Origin: Sphingomonas sp. 32-66-10
Lineage (GTDB): Bacteria; Pseudomonadota; Alphaproteobacteria; Sphingomonadales; Sphingomonadaceae
Assembly: GCA_002280565.1 (NCBI GenBank)
Contig: NCEF01000005.1
Span: 75,589 to 137,334 of the forward strand
Direction of reading: 5' to 3'
Length of the DNA: 61,746 bases
Positions 51,862 through 60,051 of this stretch are shown here, piece by piece. A program made the position numbers and the translations under genes. Under the pieces are notes generated by a model. The model saw only the letters and a list, made by a program, of their open reading frames with translations, had not been told where the DNA came from and searched no databases. The number at the start of each line of letters is the position of its first letter. Position 1 is the first letter of the stretch.

Positions 51862-53487
51862 TCAAGCGGGCTCGGTCGCCTTGTTGCGGCTCTGCGGCGC
51901 GGCCTGGCGCACGCCTTCGTCGACATGATCGGCGAACTGCGCGAAATTGGCGACGAATTCGTCCACCAGCTTCGCGGCGGTCGCGTCATATTCGCCCTTG
52001 TCCGCCCAGGCGGCCCGCGGGTCGAGCATGTTGGGGTCGATATCGCCGACCGCGACGGGCACCATGAATCCGAAATTGGGGTCCTGACGGAACTCCGCAT
52101 CCTTCAGGCTGCCGTCGAGCGCGGCGTTGAGCAGCGCGCGGGTGACGCGGATCGGCATCCGCTTGATCCCTGGCATCGTCGCCTTGCCGCCGCTCCAGCC
52201 GGTATTGACCAGCCAGCAATCGACCCCGCCCTTCGCGATCCGCTCCTTGAGCAGATTGCCATAGACCGACGGGTGGCGCGGCATGAATGGCGCACCGAAG
52301 CAGGTGGAGAAGGTCGCGCTCGGCTCGGTCACGCCGATCTCGGTCCCCGCGACGCGCGCGGTATAGCCCGAGAGGAAGTGATACATCGCCTGATCCGGTG
52401 TCAGCTTCGCGATCGGGGGCAGCACGCCATAGGCATCGGCGGTGAGGAAGATGATGTTCTTCGGCACCGGACCCAGATTCTTCTCGCTCGTATTCGGGAT
52501 GAAGTCTAGCGGGTAGGATCCGCGGCTATTCTCCGCGAGGCTGTTGTCGTTGAAATCGAGCGTTCGCGTCGCATCGTCCATCACGACATTTTCGAGCACC
52601 GTGCCAAAGCGCTTGGTGGTCGCGAAAATCTCCGGCTCGGCCTCCGCCGACAGGTTGATCATCTTGGCGTAGCAGCCGCCTTCGAAATTGAAGACCGCAG
52701 TGTCGGACCAGCCATGTTCGTCATCGCCGATCAGCGTCCGGCTGGCATCGGCCGACAGCGTCGTCTTGCCGGTACCCGACAGGCCGAAGAACACCGCCGT
52801 GTCGCCGTTCGGGCCGATATTGGCCGAACAATGCATCGGCATGATGCCCTGTGGCGGGAGGAGATAATTGAGCAGGCCGAACACGCTCTTCTTCATCTCA
52901 CCGGCATAGGCGGTGCCGCCGATCAGGATCAGCTTTTCGGTCAGGTTGACCGCAATGACGGTCTCGCTGCGGCAGCCATGCTTGGCCGGATCGGCGCGGA
53001 AGCTGGGCAGGTCGATGATCGTATATTCGGCGACGAAATCGCGAAGCTCATGCGCTTCGGGGCGGACCAACAGGGTGCGGATGAACTGGCTGTGCCAGGC
53101 GAGTTCGTTGACGACACGCACGGTGACGCGGTGCTCAGGCTGCGAGCCGCCATACAGGTCCTGAACGAACAGCGTGTCCTTGGTACCCAGAGCGCTGAGG
53201 AAATCGGCCTTGAGCGCTGCGAAATGCTCGGGCGTCATCCCGACATTGGTGCTGCCCCACCAGACATTGTCCTCGGTCTCGGCATCGCGGACGATGAACT
53301 TGTCCTTGGCGCTGCGTCCGGTGTGCTTGCCGGTTTCGACGACCAGCGGCCCATCCTTGGCGAGGCGGCCCTCACCGCGACGCAGGGCATGCTCGACCAG
53401 TTGGGCAGGCAGCAGGTTCCAATGAATGGTGGCCCCGGCCGCGACGCCCAGCGCGTCGAGGCCGATCTTGGGGGTACGATCGGTCAC
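51862..53487 (-). CDS. pckA: phosphoenolpyruvate carboxykinase (ATP)
   Basis: 541 residues. PEPCK converts oxaloacetate and ATP to PEP and CO2 for gluconeogenesis. [39 protein letters not shown] and the P-loop [16 protein letters not shown] (about residue 240) are the ATP-type signature, with metal ligands in [23 protein letters not shown] 53487 is chosen because GAGGAG lies nearby and it precedes the first conserved residues; a longer frame to 53574 is less likely. In alphaproteobacteria pckA is usually divergent from chvI; here the two are 4.3 kb apart with the bufferin locus between. The 205-bp gap upstream (53488-53692) shows no clear operator. Confidence 0.95.
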
Positions 53488-53692
53488 GTCTCTCTCCTCG
53501 GCCGAGCCTCTCCGCACGGCATTGCATTCGTATGCGTGGAGTCGCGCATAGGCAGCGGCGGAAACGGGGGTCAACGCCAGTAACCGGTGTCAAAAGCGCG
53601 ATAACCGTCTATTTTTGGGTGACAACGCTGACTGTGGCATACGGACCGCGCGCGGTCGTGAAGCGCATATGCAATCCGCGCAATGGACCAGG

Positions 53693-54469
53693 TCAGTGGG
53701 CCCGAATCGACTCGATCACGCCCATTTGAAGCCAGTGGTTCAGGATTGCGCCCGCCGCAGCTGCGGCCTCGCCCTGGCCAAGGCGTTCGGCCAGTCCGGC
53801 GCAGATCTCTCCGAAGCTTGCACCGCCAACCGCCGCGGCCAACGCCACCCCCTCATGGTCGGGGAGCAGAGCGAACACTGCTTCCTCACCTTCGCGCCAG
53901 ACCAGCAGCCAATGGCGCGCCTCCAGCCGTTCGACCGTCGCGTGACCCGACTCGTTGGACAGCGAGCACCACAGCCGGGGCAGATCATGCGTCACCGGGC
54001 GCAGCGCCGTGCCTGCGATCGGCTCCAGAACAAGCTGTTCCCAATCCGCCGCGTCGAACGCCGCCGTCGCGGCGGCGAACCCTGCATGGGTCAGCGGCGT
54101 CGCATCGGCGGCGGTAAAGGCGCATTGCATCGCCCATTCGAGCCAGGCGAGCTCCGCCACATCGGGGTCATGGGCGAACAAGTCGGCGCAGGTGTCGGCG
54201 AACCCCTCCCCCGCCCGGTCAATCGTCCAGGCCGATGGGGGATGCGCGATCAGGTGGTGCGCTGCGGCCTGATGAAAGGCCTCTACACCGACCAGCCGCG
54301 CAGTGCGCGGATAGGTTTCGGCCAGCACGTCGAGCAGCCGCGCGCGATAGCCGTTGCGATAGACCGCCATGCCGGCCGCGCGGGTGGCGTCCAGGCCGGG
54401 CGGCAACGGCGCGCCATCGTCGTGCAGGCAGGCGATAAACGCGTCCTGCAACTGGGCGAGCGCGGTCAT
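53693..54469 (-). CDS. bufC: bufferin maturation partner, DUF2063 (BufC/HvfC)
   Basis: 258 residues of the DUF2063/HvfC family (ALAQLQDAFIACLHDDGAPL; AVYRNGYRARLLDVLAETYP; TARLVGVEAFHQAAAHHLIA). BufC and MbnC-type proteins pair with DUF692 enzymes to modify cysteines of RiPP precursors. The gene overlaps bufB by four bases (ATGA), so the two are translationally coupled. It is the last gene of the bufA2-bufB-bufC unit. Confidence 0.9.
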   Translation of the reverse strand: MTALAQLQDAFIACLHDDGAPLPPGLDATRAAGMAVYRNGYRARLLDVLAETYPRTARLVGVEAFHQAAAHHLIAHPPSAWTIDRAGEGFADTCADLFAHDPDVAELAWLEWAMQCAFTAADATPLTHAGFAAATAAFDAADWEQLVLEPIAGTALRPVTHDLPRLWCSLSNESGHATVERLEARHWLLVWREGEEAVFALLPDHEGVALAAAVGGASFGEICAGLAERLGQGEAAAAAGAILNHWLQMGVIESIRAH

Positions 54470-55302
54470 GCCGCCGCCTCCAGCCGCGCGGTGGCGGCGA
54501 GGCTGCGCGCCTGATCGAGTTCGGTCAGCAGTTCGGGCAGCGGCGGGATCGCGTCGTCGCGCTCGATCATCACCGCGACCGGCCCGAGCAGCGCCATCGC
54601 CCGGGCGAACAGCGCCCAGACGGCATCGCAGACCGGGCGGTCATGCGTGTCGATCACGATCTCCCCCGGCGTGTGCCCGGCGAGATGCACCTGCCGCACC
54701 CGGTCGGCGGGGATGCCCGCGAGATAGTCGCGCGGGTCGAAGCCGTGGTTGCACGCGCTGACATAGATATTGTTGACGTCGAGCAGCAGGTAGCAGCCGG
54801 TACGGCGGCTCATCTCGGCCAGGAATTGCCATTCGGCATATTCGTCCTGCGGAAAGGACAGATAGCTCGACGGATTTTCGAACAGCATCGCGCGGCCCAG
54901 TGCATCCTGCGCGTGATCGATATTCTCGCACACCAGGTCGAGCGCGGCGCAGGTCAGCGGCATCGGCAACAGGTCATGGCTGTTGTGCGCGCTGGTTCGC
55001 GTCCAGCACAGATGATCGGACACCCAGAGCGGATCGATCCGGTCGGCCAGCGTCCGCAGCCGGGCGAGATGATCCGCGTCGAGGCCCTGCGCCGATCCGA
55101 TCGACATCGAAACACCGTGCAGGATCACCGGCAGCTTCGCGCGCACCTGTTCGAGGATGCGCAGCGGACGCCCGCCATCGACCATGAAGTTTTCGGAGAT
55201 CACCTCGACGAAATCGACCGCGACCTCGCCCTCGAGGAAATCGCGATAATGGTCGCGGCGCAGGCCGAGGCCGAAGCCGGCAAATGGCGTCACTGCATGC
55301 AT
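54466..55302 (-). CDS. bufB: bufferin-modifying multinuclear iron enzyme, DUF692 (BufB/HvfB)
   Basis: 278-residue DUF692 TIM-barrel protein, the MbnB-related family of multinuclear non-haem iron oxidases that turn precursor cysteines into thiooxazoles. Metal-binding and barrel motifs are seen: FVEVISENFMVDGGRPLRIL, LPVILHGVSMSIGSAQGLDA, WVSDHLCW, LLLDVNNIYVSACNHGFDPR, VRQVHLAGHTPGEIVIDTHD. The product is likely to be cytosolic and to act on bufA2 and probably bufA1 precursors. The gap to bufA2 contains a strong stem-loop. Confidence 0.92.
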   Translation of the reverse strand: MHAVTPFAGFGLGLRRDHYRDFLEGEVAVDFVEVISENFMVDGGRPLRILEQVRAKLPVILHGVSMSIGSAQGLDADHLARLRTLADRIDPLWVSDHLCWTRTSAHNSHDLLPMPLTCAALDLVCENIDHAQDALGRAMLFENPSSYLSFPQDEYAEWQFLAEMSRRTGCYLLLDVNNIYVSACNHGFDPRDYLAGIPADRVRQVHLAGHTPGEIVIDTHDRPVCDAVWALFARAMALLGPVAVMIERDDAIPPLPELLTELDQARSLAATARLEAAA

Positions 55303-55379: not shown

Positions 55380-55670
55380 TCAGCCGAGGTCGCCGATCGT
55401 CCCACCCTTGGAGAGGCATTCGCCGGCCTTCATCGCCTTGAAGCCATGGCCCTTGCAGGCATTGTTACCCTTGCACTGATGCTCGGTCGTCGCGCAGTCC
55501 GACTGGCCCTTGCAGCTGTGCAGGCCGTAGCAATGCACCGTGTCGTTCGCACCGATCGCGCGGCCCTTGCTGCCTGCGGGCGTATCGGCGGCGAAAGCGG
55601 CAACCGAGCCCAGCGCGATGGCGGCGGCGGTGGCGGCGATGGATGCGGCGGTGCGCGTTGCGGTCTTCAT
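55380..55670 (-). CDS. bufA2: bufferin precursor, BufA2-like (Cys-rich RiPP)
   Basis: 96-residue precursor. A Sec signal peptide (MKTATRTAASIAATAAAIAL, cleaved near AFA) is followed by a core with six Cys: CYGLHSCKGQSDC and QCKGNNACKGHGF then GECLSKGG. The CKG repeats are like those of BufA2-type bufferins, copper-binding RiPPs described in Caulobacter. The DUF692/DUF2063 genes follow on the same strand, as expected for a modified precursor. It has a promoter of the SigF type 50 bp upstream. The actual modification and metal are inferred from the family. Confidence 0.88.
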   Translation of the reverse strand: MKTATRTAASIAATAAAIALGSVAAFAADTPAGSKGRAIGANDTVHCYGLHSCKGQSDCATTEHQCKGNNACKGHGFKAMKAGECLSKGGTIGDLG

Positions 55671-55720
55671 GTCGCTATTCCTTTCAAGCGGATCGTCGTG
55701 CGAAAGCGCACTCCGACCAG

Positions 55721-55746
55721 TTCGCCGAACCCGGCGCCGGGGTTAC
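55721..55746 (-). promoter_or_regulatory. SigF-type promoter of bufA2
   Basis: Minus strand GTAACC (-35, 55746-55741), 16-base spacer, CGAA (-10, 55724-55721). This is the form GTAACC-N16-CGAA known for SigF of Caulobacter. It lies about 50 bp before the bufA2 ATG at 55670 and is 24 bp from the opposed promoter. Confidence 0.8.
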
Positions 55747-55770
55747 ACCCGAAACAATTTTTCACCGGCT

Positions 55771-55796
55771 GTAACGCCCCTCTGTCTCGTCACGAA
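55771..55796 (+). promoter_or_regulatory. SigF-type promoter of bufA1
   Basis: Plus strand GTAACG (-35, 55771-55776), 16-base spacer, CGAA (-10, 55793-55796). It has the same layout as the opposed promoter, with one mismatch (G for C) in the -35. It lies about 53 bp before the bufA1 start, which also shows that an upstream in-frame ATG at 55796 cannot be the real start. Confidence 0.78.
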
Positions 55797-55849
55797 TGAG
55801 CAGCCGTGCCGACGATCCTATGCGTGGGCACCGACCACAGCCGGAGACG

Positions 55850-56140
55850 ATGACGATGACCACTTCCACGATTGCGCGCCTCGCCGGGCTCGCCGCCACC
55901 GCCGGACTCGCCGCAGCGCTCGGCACCGCACCCGCCGCCGCGCAGAAGCCCGAGATGGAAAAATGCTATGGCATCGCCAAGGCGGGCAAGAATGATTGCG
56001 CGGCCGGTCCGGGCACCAGCTGCGCCGGCAGCTCGACCCGCGACTATCAGGGCAATGCCTGGAAGCTGGTGCCCAAGGGCACGTGCGCAAAGACCGAAAC
56101 GCCCAAGGGCAACGGTTCGCTGACCCCGGTCCAGCGCTGA
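55850..56140 (+). CDS. bufA1: bufferin precursor, BufA1-like (DUF2282)
   Basis: 96 residues (ATG 55850; ATG 55856 is equally possible, with GGAG just upstream). A signal peptide ([20 protein letters not shown], cleaved near AAA) leads to a four-Cys DUF2282 core: [32 protein letters not shown]2282 proteins are the BufA1 bufferins. The core is quite unlike that of bufA2, so the locus makes two different products. No bufB/bufC follows on this strand, so it must share the maturases encoded on the other strand. Confidence 0.88.
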
Positions 56141-56167
56141 TCCCTTCGCACCTGACAGGATAATAAC

Positions 56168-56632
56168 ATGCAGCGCATCGCATCTTTGGTCGACCGGGCC
56201 GTCACGCTGGTCGGTTCGCGCACGGCAGAGGGCGTTGCGCTGCTGCTGGTGCGGGTCGCGCTCGCCGGAATCTTCTGGCGCGCGGGCCGCAGCAAGGTGG
56301 TGGAGGGAAGCTGGTTCGAACTCAGCGACTCCACCCGCTATCTGTTCGAGAATGATTACAGCGCGGTTCCGCTGCCGCCGGAGCTCGCCGCGCCCATGGC
56401 GCTGATGGCAGAGCATCTGTTCCCTGTCTTATTGCTGATCGGGCTCGCGACGCGGTTCTCGGCGCTCGCTCTGCTTGGCATGACGCTGGTCATCCAGCTG
56501 TTCGTCTATCCCGACGCCTGGTGGGCGACCCATATTCTGTGGGTTGCGCTGGCGGGCATCCTGATCGTGCGTGGCGGCGGCATGGTCTCGCTCGACGCGC
56601 AGATCGCCAAGTGGCACCGTCGGCGGGGCTGA
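56168..56632 (+). CDS. DoxX family membrane protein (BufD/HvfX-like)
   Basis: 154 residues, four transmembrane helices (VALLLVRVALAGIFWRAG; MALMAEHLFPVLLLIGLATR; LALLGMTLVIQLFVYPDAWW; ILWVALAGILIVRGG). The DoxX family member next to bufferin/DUF2063/DUF692 genes is a regular part of such loci, presumably helping redox or membrane delivery. A Cys pair for quinone-coupled redox is not obvious. ATG 56168 has AGGA upstream. Confidence 0.88.
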   Translation: MQRIASLVDRAVTLVGSRTAEGVALLLVRVALAGIFWRAGRSKVVEGSWFELSDSTRYLFENDYSAVPLPPELAAPMALMAEHLFPVLLLIGLATRFSALALLGMTLVIQLFVYPDAWWATHILWVALAGILIVRGGGMVSLDAQIAKWHRRRG

Positions 56633-56659
56633 TACCGGGTCAGGACGGCGGGGACGGCG

Positions 56660-57190
56660 ATGATTGCAGATGAAGCCGGCTTCGTGCGGCTGATGATCGC
56701 CGCGCAGGCGGGCGACAGCCGCGCCTATACCGTGCTGCTGACCGAGGTGCAGCTGTGGCTGGAACGCTATTTCCGCCGCCGCGTCGCGCCCGGCCAGCTC
56801 GACGATCTGGTGCAGGAGGTGCTGCTGGCGCTGCATGCCAAGCGCGCGACCTGGGACGAGACGCGCGCGTTCCTGCCCTGGCTCGCGGCGATCGCCCGCT
56901 ATCGCTGGGTCGATCATCTGCGCCGGGTCTATCGCTCCGCCGAGGACGCGCTGGAGGATCAGGATTCGGCTGAGGACAGCGACGAAGAGGCAGTGCTGGC
57001 GCGGATGAGCCTGGCGCGGCTGTTCGTCCACCTGCCACGGGGCCAGTGCGAGGCGATCGCGCTGGTGAAGATCAAGGGGCTGTCCGTCACCGAGGCAGCC
57101 GAACGTAGCGGTCAGAGCGAAAGCCTGATCAAGGTGAATATCCATCGCGGCTTGAGAAAGCTCGCCGCGCTCGTAGAAGAGGCCGACTGA
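56660..57190 (+). CDS. sigF: ECF sigma factor, SigF-like
   Basis: 176 residues. Region 2 has LDDLVQEVLLALHAKRATWD and AFLPWLAAIARYRWVDHLRR (-10 recognition); region 4 has HLPRGQCEAIALVKIKGLSV and TEAAERSGQSESLIKVNIHR (-35 recognition). In Caulobacter SigF with its membrane anti-sigma NrsF answers chromate, cadmium and copper stress and drives bufferin genes. This gene is followed by the NrsF-like gene, two bases after its stop, as in that system. It probably recognises the GTAAC(C/G)-N16-CGAA promoters at 55721 and 55771. Confidence 0.9.
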   Translation: MIADEAGFVRLMIAAQAGDSRAYTVLLTEVQLWLERYFRRRVAPGQLDDLVQEVLLALHAKRATWDETRAFLPWLAAIARYRWVDHLRRVYRSAEDALEDQDSAEDSDEEAVLARMSLARLFVHLPRGQCEAIALVKIKGLSVTEAAERSGQSESLIKVNIHRGLRKLAALVEEAD

Positions 57191-57192
57191 CC

Positions 57193-57719
57193 ATGACCCC
57201 CCCGCCCCCCCCCCGGGCCTGTGGTCCGGCCCGCTGCATGGCGAGGCGACGGGGATGTTCTTTGTCGCCAATGCGCTGATCGGACTTGTCGGGCTGGTCG
57301 CGGCACTCGCAGTCATCCGCATGGCCGGCCCACGCGTCGGCGCGCGGCAGGACGGTGCGCGCTGGCTGCTCGCGGCGTTGGCAATCCTCCCCATGACCGC
57401 CGTGATCCTTGCCGCGATCGAGGGCCAAATCGACTGGCATGAACACGCGACCCATGGCCTGGAGTGTTTCGTCGCCGGAACCGGCAGCGGCGCTTTGGTG
57501 GCGGTAGCGCTGGTCGCATGGCTGCGGCGTGGCGCGCCGGTCACCCTCAATATCGCCGGATTCTATACCGGTGTTGCCACCGGCGCGCTCGGCAGCTTTG
57601 CCTATGGCCTGACTTGCCCGGTGGATTCGATCGGCCATCTCGGCATCTGGCACGTCGCGCCGGTCGCGCTGTCGGCGGCGCTGGGGCGGTTCATCGTTCC
57701 GCACTGGGTGCGGTGGTAG
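57193..57719 (+). pseudogene. nrsF: NrsF-like anti-sigma factor (DUF1109), N-terminally truncated and frameshifted
   Basis: The natural start is the ATG at 57193, right after the sigF stop, but it runs into a poly-C tract (57197-57214) and then a wrong frame. From 57255 another frame codes 154 residues of a DUF1109 membrane protein (MFFVANALIGLVGLVAALAV; GSGALVAVALVAWLRRGAPV; TGVATGALGSFAYGLTCPVD). Two cysteines, in GLECF and GLTC, are exactly 50 residues apart, as in the sensing pair C131 and C181 of Caulobacter NrsF (numbers from memory). About 45-60 N-terminal residues, including the cytosolic sigma-binding part, are missing. If real, the sigma factor would be unrestrained. Confidence 0.7.
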
Positions 57720-57773: not shown

Positions 57774-58490
57774 ATGACCGCAACGATTGCGCTGGTCGAT
57801 GACGACCGCAACATCCTGACGTCCGTGTCGATCGCGTTGCAGGCCGAGGGGTTTGTGACGCGCGTCTATTCGGATGGCGAGGCGGCGCTGAAGGCGCTGG
57901 TCGACAATCCGCCCGAGCTGGCGGTGCTCGACATCAAGATGCCGCGCATGGACGGGCTGGAGCTGCTGCGGCGGCTGCGCGAGAAGAGCCAGATCCCGGT
58001 AATCTTCCTGACCAGCAAGGATGACGAGCTGGACGAGGCGCTGGGCCTGGCGATGGGCGCGGACGATTATATCGCCAAGCCGTTCAGCCAGCGGCTGCTG
58101 ATCGCCCGCATCCGAGCGATCCTGCGCCGGACCGAGCTGGTCGCGGCGACCGTTCCGGGCGAGGAAGCGGCGGCGGTCGAGGCACAGCCGGTGATCGAGC
58201 GCGGCCCGCTGACGATGGACCCGGCGCGGCACAAGGTGACGTGGAAGGGCGACAATGTGACGCTGACCGTCACCGAATTCATGATCCTCGAAACGCTCGC
58301 CCAGCGGCCCGGCATCGTCAAGACACGCAACCAGCTGATGGATGCGGCGTATCAGGACGACATTTACGTCGATGACCGCACCATCGACAGCCATATCAAG
58401 CGCGTGCGCCGCAAGTTCCGGCAGGTCGATCCGACATTCGACGCCATCGAGACGCTCTATGGTGCCGGATATCGCTTCTCCGACGAATAG
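57774..58490 (+). CDS. chvI: response regulator ChvI
   Basis: 238-residue OmpR-type regulator. Receiver: acidic DDDRNIL, phospho-Asp in [39 protein letters not shown]. Winged helix: [20 protein letters not shown] and [20 protein letters not shown]. ChvI with ChvG controls envelope, acid and osmotic responses and central metabolism in alphaproteobacteria; together with pckA, hprK and EIIA it makes a conserved regulatory neighbourhood. The chvG gene overlaps it. Confidence 0.94.
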
Positions 58491-60051
58491 GCCCGCCGCG
58501 ACGCGGGAAGAGCGCGACCTGTCGCTGCGCTGGTCCGGCCGGGTCAGCCTGACGCCGCGCATCCTGGCGGTGAACATCTTTGCGCTGGTGATGCTGGCGG
58601 GCGGGTTCTTTTACCTCGACAGCTATCGCGCACGGATCGTCGACAGCCGCGTCGAACAGGCGAGCCGCGAGGCGCGGCTGATTGCCCAAGCCGTTGCGAT
58701 GACCCCGCCCGATGACCGCACTGCGCTGGTCCGCCGGGTGGCGAGCGAGGCGGATATCCGCATCCGCCTCTATGATCGCGCCGGGCGCGTGACACTCGAC
58801 ACGCGCGCGCTCGGCCTCAACAATTTCGTGCTGCGCGATCCCGACAAGGACCCGTGGAACCAGAGCGCGGCGCGCTTCCTCGATGCGGTGATCGACACCG
58901 TCGCGGGCGCAGATCGCGACCAGCAGTTTCGCGAACGCGCGCCGACCAAGGGGCTGGACTGGCCCGACCTCGCCGCTGCACTGCGCACCGGCGAGTCGAG
59001 TGCGACCGTGTGGCGCGCGCCCGATCGCACGCCGGTGATCACCGCCGCCGCGCCCTATGGGCCGGAAGGTGCGGTATTCACCAGTTCCAATGCGCGCGAC
59101 ATCACCCAGACCGTCCGGGTGGAGCGGTTCCGGCTGGGACTGGTGCTGGCCTTTACCGCAGGGCTGTCGATCTTTCTGTCGCTGTTCCTGGCGCGCACCA
59201 TCGTCCGGCCGCTGCGCCGCCTCGCCCGCGCCGCAGTGCGGGTGCGGCTGGGGCGTGCGCGCGAAGTGGTGGTGCCGCGCCTGCCCGAGCGGCGCGACGA
59301 GATCGGCCACCTCGCCCGATCGCTATCGGACATGAGCCTGGCACTGCGCGCGCGGATCGATGCGACCGAAGCCTTTGCCGCCGACCTGGCGCATGAGATC
59401 AAGAACCCGCTCGCCTCGCTCCGCTCCGCCGTCGACAGCCTGATGGCGGTGCGCGACCCGGCGCTGCAGAGCCAGTTGCTGGCGGTGGTGCGCGACGACG
59501 TGCTGCGGCTCGACCGGCTGATCAGCGACATTTCGGAGGCGTCGCGGCTCGACGCACAGCTGTCCCGTGCCAAGTTCGATCCCGTCGATCTGGGTGCGAT
59601 GCTAGCGGCGATGGTCGAGCAGCGCACGGCGCGCGGCCTCGAACGCGATATTCGCCTGCGCTTCGACGCGCCGGTCGGGCCGACACCGATGGTGATGGGC
59701 GAAGGCGCCCGGCTGGAACGGGTCTTCGCCAATCTGATCGACAACGCCGTGTCCTTTTCACCCGATGGCGGCACGGTGGCGCTGTCGCTGATCGCGTCCG
59801 GCGACATGCTGGAGGCGCGGGTCGAGGATGAGGGACCGGGGGTGCCGGAAGAGGCGCGCGAAGCAATCTTCCGTCGCTTCCACACCGACCGACCCGAGGG
59901 CGAGGAATTCGGCAAGCATTCCGGACTGGGGCTTGCGATTGCGCGGACCATCGTCGAAGGCCATCAAGGTACGATCGGCGTCGAAACGCGCGAGGACCGG
60001 ATACAGGGCGCGCGCTTCGTCGTCCGCCTGCCGTTCGTTCAGGCGGGTTGA
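58459..60051 (+). CDS. chvG: sensor histidine kinase ChvG
   Basis: About 530 residues. There are two transmembrane helices (about residues 33-55 and 228-250) around a periplasmic sensor of about 170 residues, then HAMP, HisKA with phospho-His in [20 protein letters not shown] (about 313), N box [20 protein letters not shown], and G boxes with [20 protein letters not shown] and [23 protein letters not shown] 58459 overlaps the chvI end; GTG 58462 is an alternative. The order chvI-chvG-hprK-rapZ-EIIA is the typical alphaproteobacterial one. Confidence 0.93.

Follow-up and report, generated by a model that had tools for sequence, protein, structure and literature searches.

In Caulobacter vibrioides, bufferin precursors are encoded in two separate operons of the SigF regulon, buf1 (CCNA_03363-03366) and buf2 (CCNA_03001-02999), each of which has its own pair of an MNIO maturase and a DUF2063 partner protein. 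Previous work showed that SigF, whose consensus site in Caulobacter is GTAACC-N16-CGAA, controls both operons (PMC3511200), that copper induces both of them and that a sigF mutant is copper-sensitive (PMC8224329). Here we describe a bufferin locus in a 61,746-nucleotide stretch of Sphingomonas sp. 32-66-10 (contig NCEF01000005.1; hereafter the window) that uses the same precursor, MNIO, DUF2063 and DoxX families and carries sites of the GTAACC-N16-CGAA kind described for both Caulobacter operons (PMC3511200, PMC8224329). The window, which is known from sequence alone, differs in having one pair, bufB and bufC, beside two precursor genes, the four-Cys bufA1 and the six-Cys bufA2.

Two further systems bear on such a locus. 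Antoine et al. 2025 (PMC12452194) described precursor genes in tandem and others with no MNIO nearby, as well as genomes where a single maturase pair accompanies several precursors; that one pair serves several precursors was proposed there as one possibility, and the question was left open. Their tandem-precursor clusters, and their genomes where one MNIO/PME-type 1 pair stands against several precursors, resemble the window in having more precursors than pairs, whereas the window brings a Buf1 and a Buf2 precursor together at one locus, a mixture of which we found no description in the main text of that paper. The initial annotation of the window took published operons to carry the maturases behind each precursor, which is not general in view of the clusters reported there. 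The same paper places sigma factor/NrsF genes in Buf1 but not in Buf2 clusters, and two of the gene orders described below (I and II) are at odds with that restriction. The other system is the fontiphorin cluster fonABC (Gadgil et al., PMC12668002), in which an MNIO with a DUF2063 partner installs 5-thiooxazoles. The catalytic Asp is common to this MNIO and the window BufB, and the residue that follows it provides a fingerprint of enzyme class by which the two can be compared; fonABC differs in being minimal, with a single precursor built of EGKCG-type repeats and no second precursor.

Results

The window holds a divergent locus in which bufA2-bufB-bufC run leftward and bufA1-doxX-sigF-nrsF rightward from a 179-bp gap (positions 55671-55849). 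This arrangement and the six Cys of BufA2 and four of BufA1 had been given in the initial annotation; the coordinates and translations bear them out, and the arrangement is conserved in relatives. The interval 55380-57719 that was annotated does contain both precursor genes; bufB and bufC are real but lie outside it. The MNIO and DUF2063 genes stand directly behind bufA2, on the other side of the gap from bufA1, which is followed by doxX and not by a maturase, so that the order bufA-bufB-bufC is not found there. The locus is real, conserved and common, and that several precursors may share a pair had already been proposed by Antoine et al. 2025. The reading that we favour, with a probability of about 0.7, is a mixed Buf1/Buf2 cluster in which one BufB of the Buf2 class, together with its DUF2063 partner BufC, would modify both precursors.

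It had been suggested that copies of bufB and bufC be counted. The window assembly (2.68 Mb, 83% complete) has one match each for MNIO (PF05114), DUF2063, DUF2282 (the BufA1 family) and BufA2. Among the nearest named relatives, one MNIO was counted in the genomes of L061 and L063 and two in that of L062. At the second MNIO of L062 (L201) a bufC-like gene was present, and neither bufA1 nor bufA2 was detected within the 9.5-kb stretch; next to this further MNIO and DUF2063 pair (L201:4150-5893) is a Cys-rich reading frame, 270 codons long or more, that may encode its precursor. A survey of 199 family genomes matched MNIO 87 times (70 genomes), DUF2282 101 times (66 genomes) and, above the cut-off, BufA2 44 times (42 genomes). 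Exactly one MNIO was present in 23 of the 35 genomes that hold both precursors and are at least 90% complete. All 23 have a single DUF2063 (read by eye), and 22 show the divergent layout, the exception being G031, where bufA1 is on a separate contig. An MNIO was found in 64 of the 66 genomes with DUF2282. Whole-genome counts for 20 of the 80 named loci introduced below gave one MNIO in 14, including the cultured relative Qipengyuania flava DSM 16421 (L076), and two or three in 6.

All 44 bufA2 genes of the family (above the cut-off) stand directly before an MNIO gene, and 35 of them are accompanied by a divergent bufA1 at a distance of up to 6 kb; 30 MNIO genes in these genomes lie directly behind a bufA1. 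In named genomes, where the best 80 of 382 BufB relatives were kept, a sample biased to the window's BufB class, both precursors flank a single bufB in 72. The remaining eight have bufA2 only (5), bufA1 only (1) or neither (2), some being cut by contig ends. The 72 dual loci are alphaproteobacterial (41), gammaproteobacterial (18) and betaproteobacterial (13). What had been called an economical variant is therefore not rare: loci of this BufB group are usually laid out in this way. Three gene orders occur. Layout I, that of the window (39 rows), has nrsF, sigF, doxX and bufA1 on one side and bufA2, bufB and bufC on the other; in layout II (18 rows) doxX and bufA1 face sigF, nrsF, bufA2, bufB and bufC; and layout III (29 rows, all beta- or gammaproteobacterial) lacks sigF and mostly reads bufA1, doxX, bufA2, bufB, bufC, all in the same direction. 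These rows are related to one another, the 39 of layout I representing 38 distinct precursor pairs with the window present twice (WIN and L180), and the layout-II rows include L109, in which a sigF-like gene lies beyond bufC. As bufA1 and bufA2 stay beside one bufB in three gene orders, the pairing has outlived rearrangement, and since the arrangement is kept in many related bacteria, one enzyme pair probably finishes both precursors.

Some loci depart from these orders in detail. An alpha/beta hydrolase gene separates doxX from bufA2 in the three layout-III loci that were read (L088, L096 and L118); the profile confirmation is for one of the three, L096:4450-5229, an Abhydrolase_6 protein with a signal-like N-terminus. 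In L092 and L116 (Duganella) a bufC-like gene stands between bufA1 and doxX, apart from the bufB behind bufA2, a split of partner and enzyme. MNIO and bufC-like genes with no adjacent bufA1 or bufA2 found are present in L147, L148 and L149, and their three MNIOs form one tree group. The BufB proteins of L109 (Luteimonas), L128 (a Halieaceae metagenome-assembled genome) and L139 (a contig labelled Actinobacteria) fall among Sphingomonadales sequences, by transfer of the cassette or, for those derived from metagenome assemblies, possibly by misbinning.

The class of the maturase was examined in a midpoint-rooted tree, built by a quick search from 137 BufB sequences. The window protein is one of 103 forming a group (SH-aLRT support 91, below the 95 mark) to which all 85 dual-locus sequences belong, while 27 of the 28 BufB proteins encoded directly behind bufA1 fall outside it. 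The one inside, L146, forms a long branch close to the dual-locus sequences, has two bufA1 genes before bufB, and was not used. The two sets also differ at the residue after the catalytic Asp. In this aligned column Asp is found in 77 of the 85 dual-locus proteins, the window included (ERDD), and in 10 of 11 from bufA2-only loci, as against 0 of the 28 behind bufA1, which have Thr (18), Asn (4), Gly (4) or Ser (2). Gadgil et al. (PMC12668002) report that the residue after FonB-Asp249 is Phe in enzymes of the Lys-Cys kind, Asp in those of the Cys-Lys kind (BufA2-type) and unconserved in DUF2282 MNIOs, and that it contacts a substrate Lys in their model; the matching of that residue to our BufB column is a step of the present analysis. 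Counts of fixed BufB motifs (HG[VIL]S in 3 of the 28 behind bufA1) proved biased to the window's class and were replaced by the aligned column. By tree and active-site fingerprint, then, the window BufB is assigned to the Buf2 class, so that BufA1 would be a guest substrate. Both maturase classes occur back to back in L145 (G020:C92:9284-18344), as bufA2-bufB-bufC and bufA1-bufB-bufC-doxX, a natural two-enzyme control.

The best comparative evidence that BufA1 may be a substrate of a Buf2-class pair comes from the genus g42. Its three genomes (G041, G121 and G180; 99-100% complete) each have one MNIO, one DUF2063 and two DUF2282 matches and no BufA2 match, and at their loci nrsF, sigF, doxX and bufA1 lie on one side and bufB and bufC on the opposite side. 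A tblastn search of four loci with 40 of the 98 BufA2 proteins found no bufA2 remnant among the matches listed, the weak matches falling partly on bufA1. The three BufB proteins form one group (support 97) inside a group of 36 (support 100), of which 32 are from dual loci; because they are nested in a mostly dual group, bufA2 was most likely lost. The g42 bufB is constrained, with proportions of nonsynonymous and synonymous differences (pN and pS) of 0.14-0.17 and 0.76-0.84, respectively, the latter saturated. As judged by these comparisons, g42 keeps a Buf2-class pair where only BufA1-type precursors are found, a third, unseen precursor being possible. Following the catalytic Asp, two of the three g42 proteins have Glu in place of Asp, as does 1 of the 85 dual-locus sequences; this is at most a hint of drift in a residue taken to contact the substrate. 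Massilia polaris (L103), with bufA1, doxX, bufB and bufC and no bufA2, was considered as another case of bufA2 loss and set aside as not clean, its genome having three MNIOs; L103 was counted in a four-row group 'V' in the promoter, Cys and tail analyses.

The precursors themselves were also compared. The four core Cys are kept in 85 of 86 dual-locus BufA1 proteins (38/39 in layout I, 18/18 in II and 29/29 in III), and 72 of the 86 end in a PKGxGSL-like tail, as against 3 of 31 from canonical bufA1 operons, 23 of which have a GG tail. Dual-locus BufA1 is thus, in these alignments, a subgroup recognisable by its tail. The initial annotation had called the two cores unrelated and leaderless, and neither description fits. 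Both precursors have hydrophobic, signal-peptide-like N-termini, as judged by eye. The DUF2282 profile meets the window BufA2 at E 0.001 (19.4 bits, below the cut-off of 22.4), the BufA2 profile matches DUF2282 proteins in relatives with E-values as low as 4.7e-9, and Antoine et al. 2025 (PMC12452194) called structural models of BufA1 and BufA2 related; on profile evidence the cores are distant relatives. Profiles built from our own alignments of the cores gave a weak match to each other (probability 7%, E 0.005), so that the relatedness rests on the curated profiles. The weak alignment places the four BufA1 Cys on BufA2 Cys 1, 3, 4 and 6, which is suggestive only.

Both precursor genes of the window face a SigF-type site. 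The two sites lie in the gap on opposite strands, the bufA2 site matching the Caulobacter consensus (PMC3511200) exactly and the bufA1 site with one change. A relaxed form, GTAAC-N17-CGAA, has 6 matches in the window assembly versus 9 for a backwards-read control and is not enriched as such; two of the six fall in the 179-bp gap, facing outward. Counts in other loci were anchored on the first core Cys, and the null, a plain single-base shuffle, gave at most 0.05 per group. In layout I the relaxed site is present before bufA1 in 39/39 rows and before bufA2 in 38/39, with both in 38/39 and 0.03 expected. The corresponding counts are 13/18 and 12/18 in layout II and 0/29 and 0/29 in layout III, and canonical bufA1 operons have a SigF-type site in 20/31.

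The features of the locus are collected in Table 1. BufB has the conserved His/Asp/Glu motifs, which can be aligned with 3bww, and its catalytic Asp is conserved. BufC, at 258 residues, is compatible with a two-domain protein, as would suit a second domain of the RRE type; it scores only 33.2 bits against the NCBIfam HvfC profile (cut-off 142), and no match better than E 0.29 was found among PDB sequences. Of nrsF, which had been annotated as a gene of the rightward arm, a reading frame is indeed present, but the gene is not intact: a comparison with the nearest relatives L061 and L062 shows about 115 bp to be absent directly behind a poly-C tract, where the frame is interrupted (window 57193-57260), and in the alignment nrsF is longer, with its N-terminal part present, in L061, L062 and L063. 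Either the anti-sigma factor has truly lost its N-terminal part here, or the assembly went wrong at the homopolymer.

Table 1. Bufferin locus of the window: genes and SigF-type promoter sites
Feature	Position	Strand	Assignment	Basis
bufC	53693..54469	-	DUF2063 partner protein (PME type 1) of MNIO	PF09836 71.6 bits, cut-off 27.2
bufB	54466..55302	-	MNIO maturase of Buf2 class (tree and fingerprint)	PF05114 358 bits; NF050167 MNIO_BufB 375.6 bits, cut-off 310
bufA2	55380..55670	-	six-Cys bufferin precursor	NF050166 (Cu_RiPP_BufA2) 99.5 bits, cut-off 60
Site facing bufA2	55721..55746	-	SigF-type promoter site	GTAACC-N16-CGAA
Site facing bufA1	55771..55796	+	SigF-type promoter site	GTAACG-N16-CGAA
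bufA1	55850 (ATG)..56140	+	four-Cys bufferin precursor (DUF2282)	PF10048 91.6 bits, cut-off 22.4
doxX	56168..56632	+	DoxX-family membrane protein	PF07681 65.5 bits, cut-off 23.6
sigF	56660..57190	+	extracytoplasmic function (ECF) sigma factor	PF04542 and PF08281 (sigma-70 regions 2 and 4) above cut-off; NF009191 150.6 bits, below cut-off 171
nrsF	57255..57719	+	anti-sigma factor, remaining open reading frame; N-terminal part missing in assembly	PF06532 positions 50-204 only

The locus lies between what we take to be a pckA-like gene (51862-53574) and what is presumably a ChvI/ChvG-like two-component pair (57774-60051). The same surroundings are found in the window, L061 and L062; within the fetched flanks of the other 78 named loci there was no pckA match, so that the cassette evidently moves as a unit.

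Discussion

The chemistry, sharing, induction and export at this locus would, in the mixed-cluster reading, run as follows. Copper stress would free SigF from NrsF, and SigF would initiate transcription in both directions at the paired sites of the gap. In the cytoplasm BufC would present BufA1 and BufA2 to BufB, which would convert certain Cys to copper-binding 5-thiooxazoles, and both products would be exported by the Sec pathway and buffer copper in the periplasm. That one pair is shared, as the initial annotation had it, holds as a comparative statement, given the single-pair genomes, the g42 loci and the SigF sites at both precursors, and not as a biochemical one.

Several points weigh against sharing. 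The window BufB carries the Buf2-class fingerprint, BufA1 elsewhere has its own class of maturase, and FonBC is reported to be selective for the residues around Cys (PMC12668002). A likeness between BufA1 and BufA2 leaders peculiar to their own locus was sought with ungapped BLOSUM62 scores, and none specific to the pair was found: own pairs score 25.1, 28.6 and 27.8 in layouts I, II and III, on par with other loci (24.5, 28.0 and 27.0) and with canonical BufA1 leaders (26.5, 27.6 and 28.2), shuffled leaders giving 22.5, 25.3 and 20.2, and a leader motif shared within the locus was accordingly rejected. The window assembly is only 83% complete, more than one MNIO was found in 12 of the 35 genomes with both precursors, and two of the 66 DUF2282 genomes (G051 and G128, with weak matches) have no MNIO, so that a BufA1-like protein may exist unmodified. 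The enzyme class and the leader result would both suit a pair that modifies BufA2 only, BufA1 being an unmodified, plain Cys metal binder, or having a redox role with DoxX, and co-induced by SigF; this alternative was named by Antoine et al. 2025 (PMC12452194). It is set against the g42 genomes, which keep the pair, with the low bufB pN given above, where only BufA1-type precursors were found, and against the accompaniment of DUF2282 by an MNIO in 64 of 66 genomes, and we consider it unlikely, though it deserves to be taken seriously.

Another possibility is that a second MNIO pair elsewhere serves BufA1 and is absent from the incomplete assembly. Genomes with both classes of pair exist among the 12 with further MNIOs, and L062 has two MNIOs; yet neither the window assembly nor the 23 single-MNIO genomes have such a pair, L061 and L063 have one MNIO each, and in the 9.5-kb stretch around the second MNIO of L062 neither precursor gene was detected. 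A separate pair for BufA1 is thus quite improbable. It is harder still to credit that the locus is decaying in this strain, with regulation and perhaps bufA1 no longer of consequence. The missing part of nrsF would fit decay, but the remaining genes have open reading frames, neither promoter-like site is missing, and nrsF is longer in L061, L062 and L063; the gap in the window may reflect the homopolymer error considered above.

The mixed-cluster reading can be carried further. We see an even chance that a Buf2-class pair of MNIO and DUF2063 proteins acts as a general-purpose maturase serving two bufferin families, that this proteobacterial BufB group normally has mixed loci rather than operons with one precursor, and that in some lineages the enzyme works on the BufA1 guest alone after loss of BufA2, its substrate-contacting Asp drifting to Glu. 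With two precursor families, one pair and two promoter sites, this type of locus makes the multi-precursor question directly testable, and natural comparisons are at hand in g42, a relative with one precursor lost, and in L145, with both maturase classes back to back. If the mixed-cluster reading is true, the locus would show one enzyme of ribosomally synthesized and post-translationally modified peptides (RiPPs) accepting two kinds of core, and two copper buffers made by one enzyme set.

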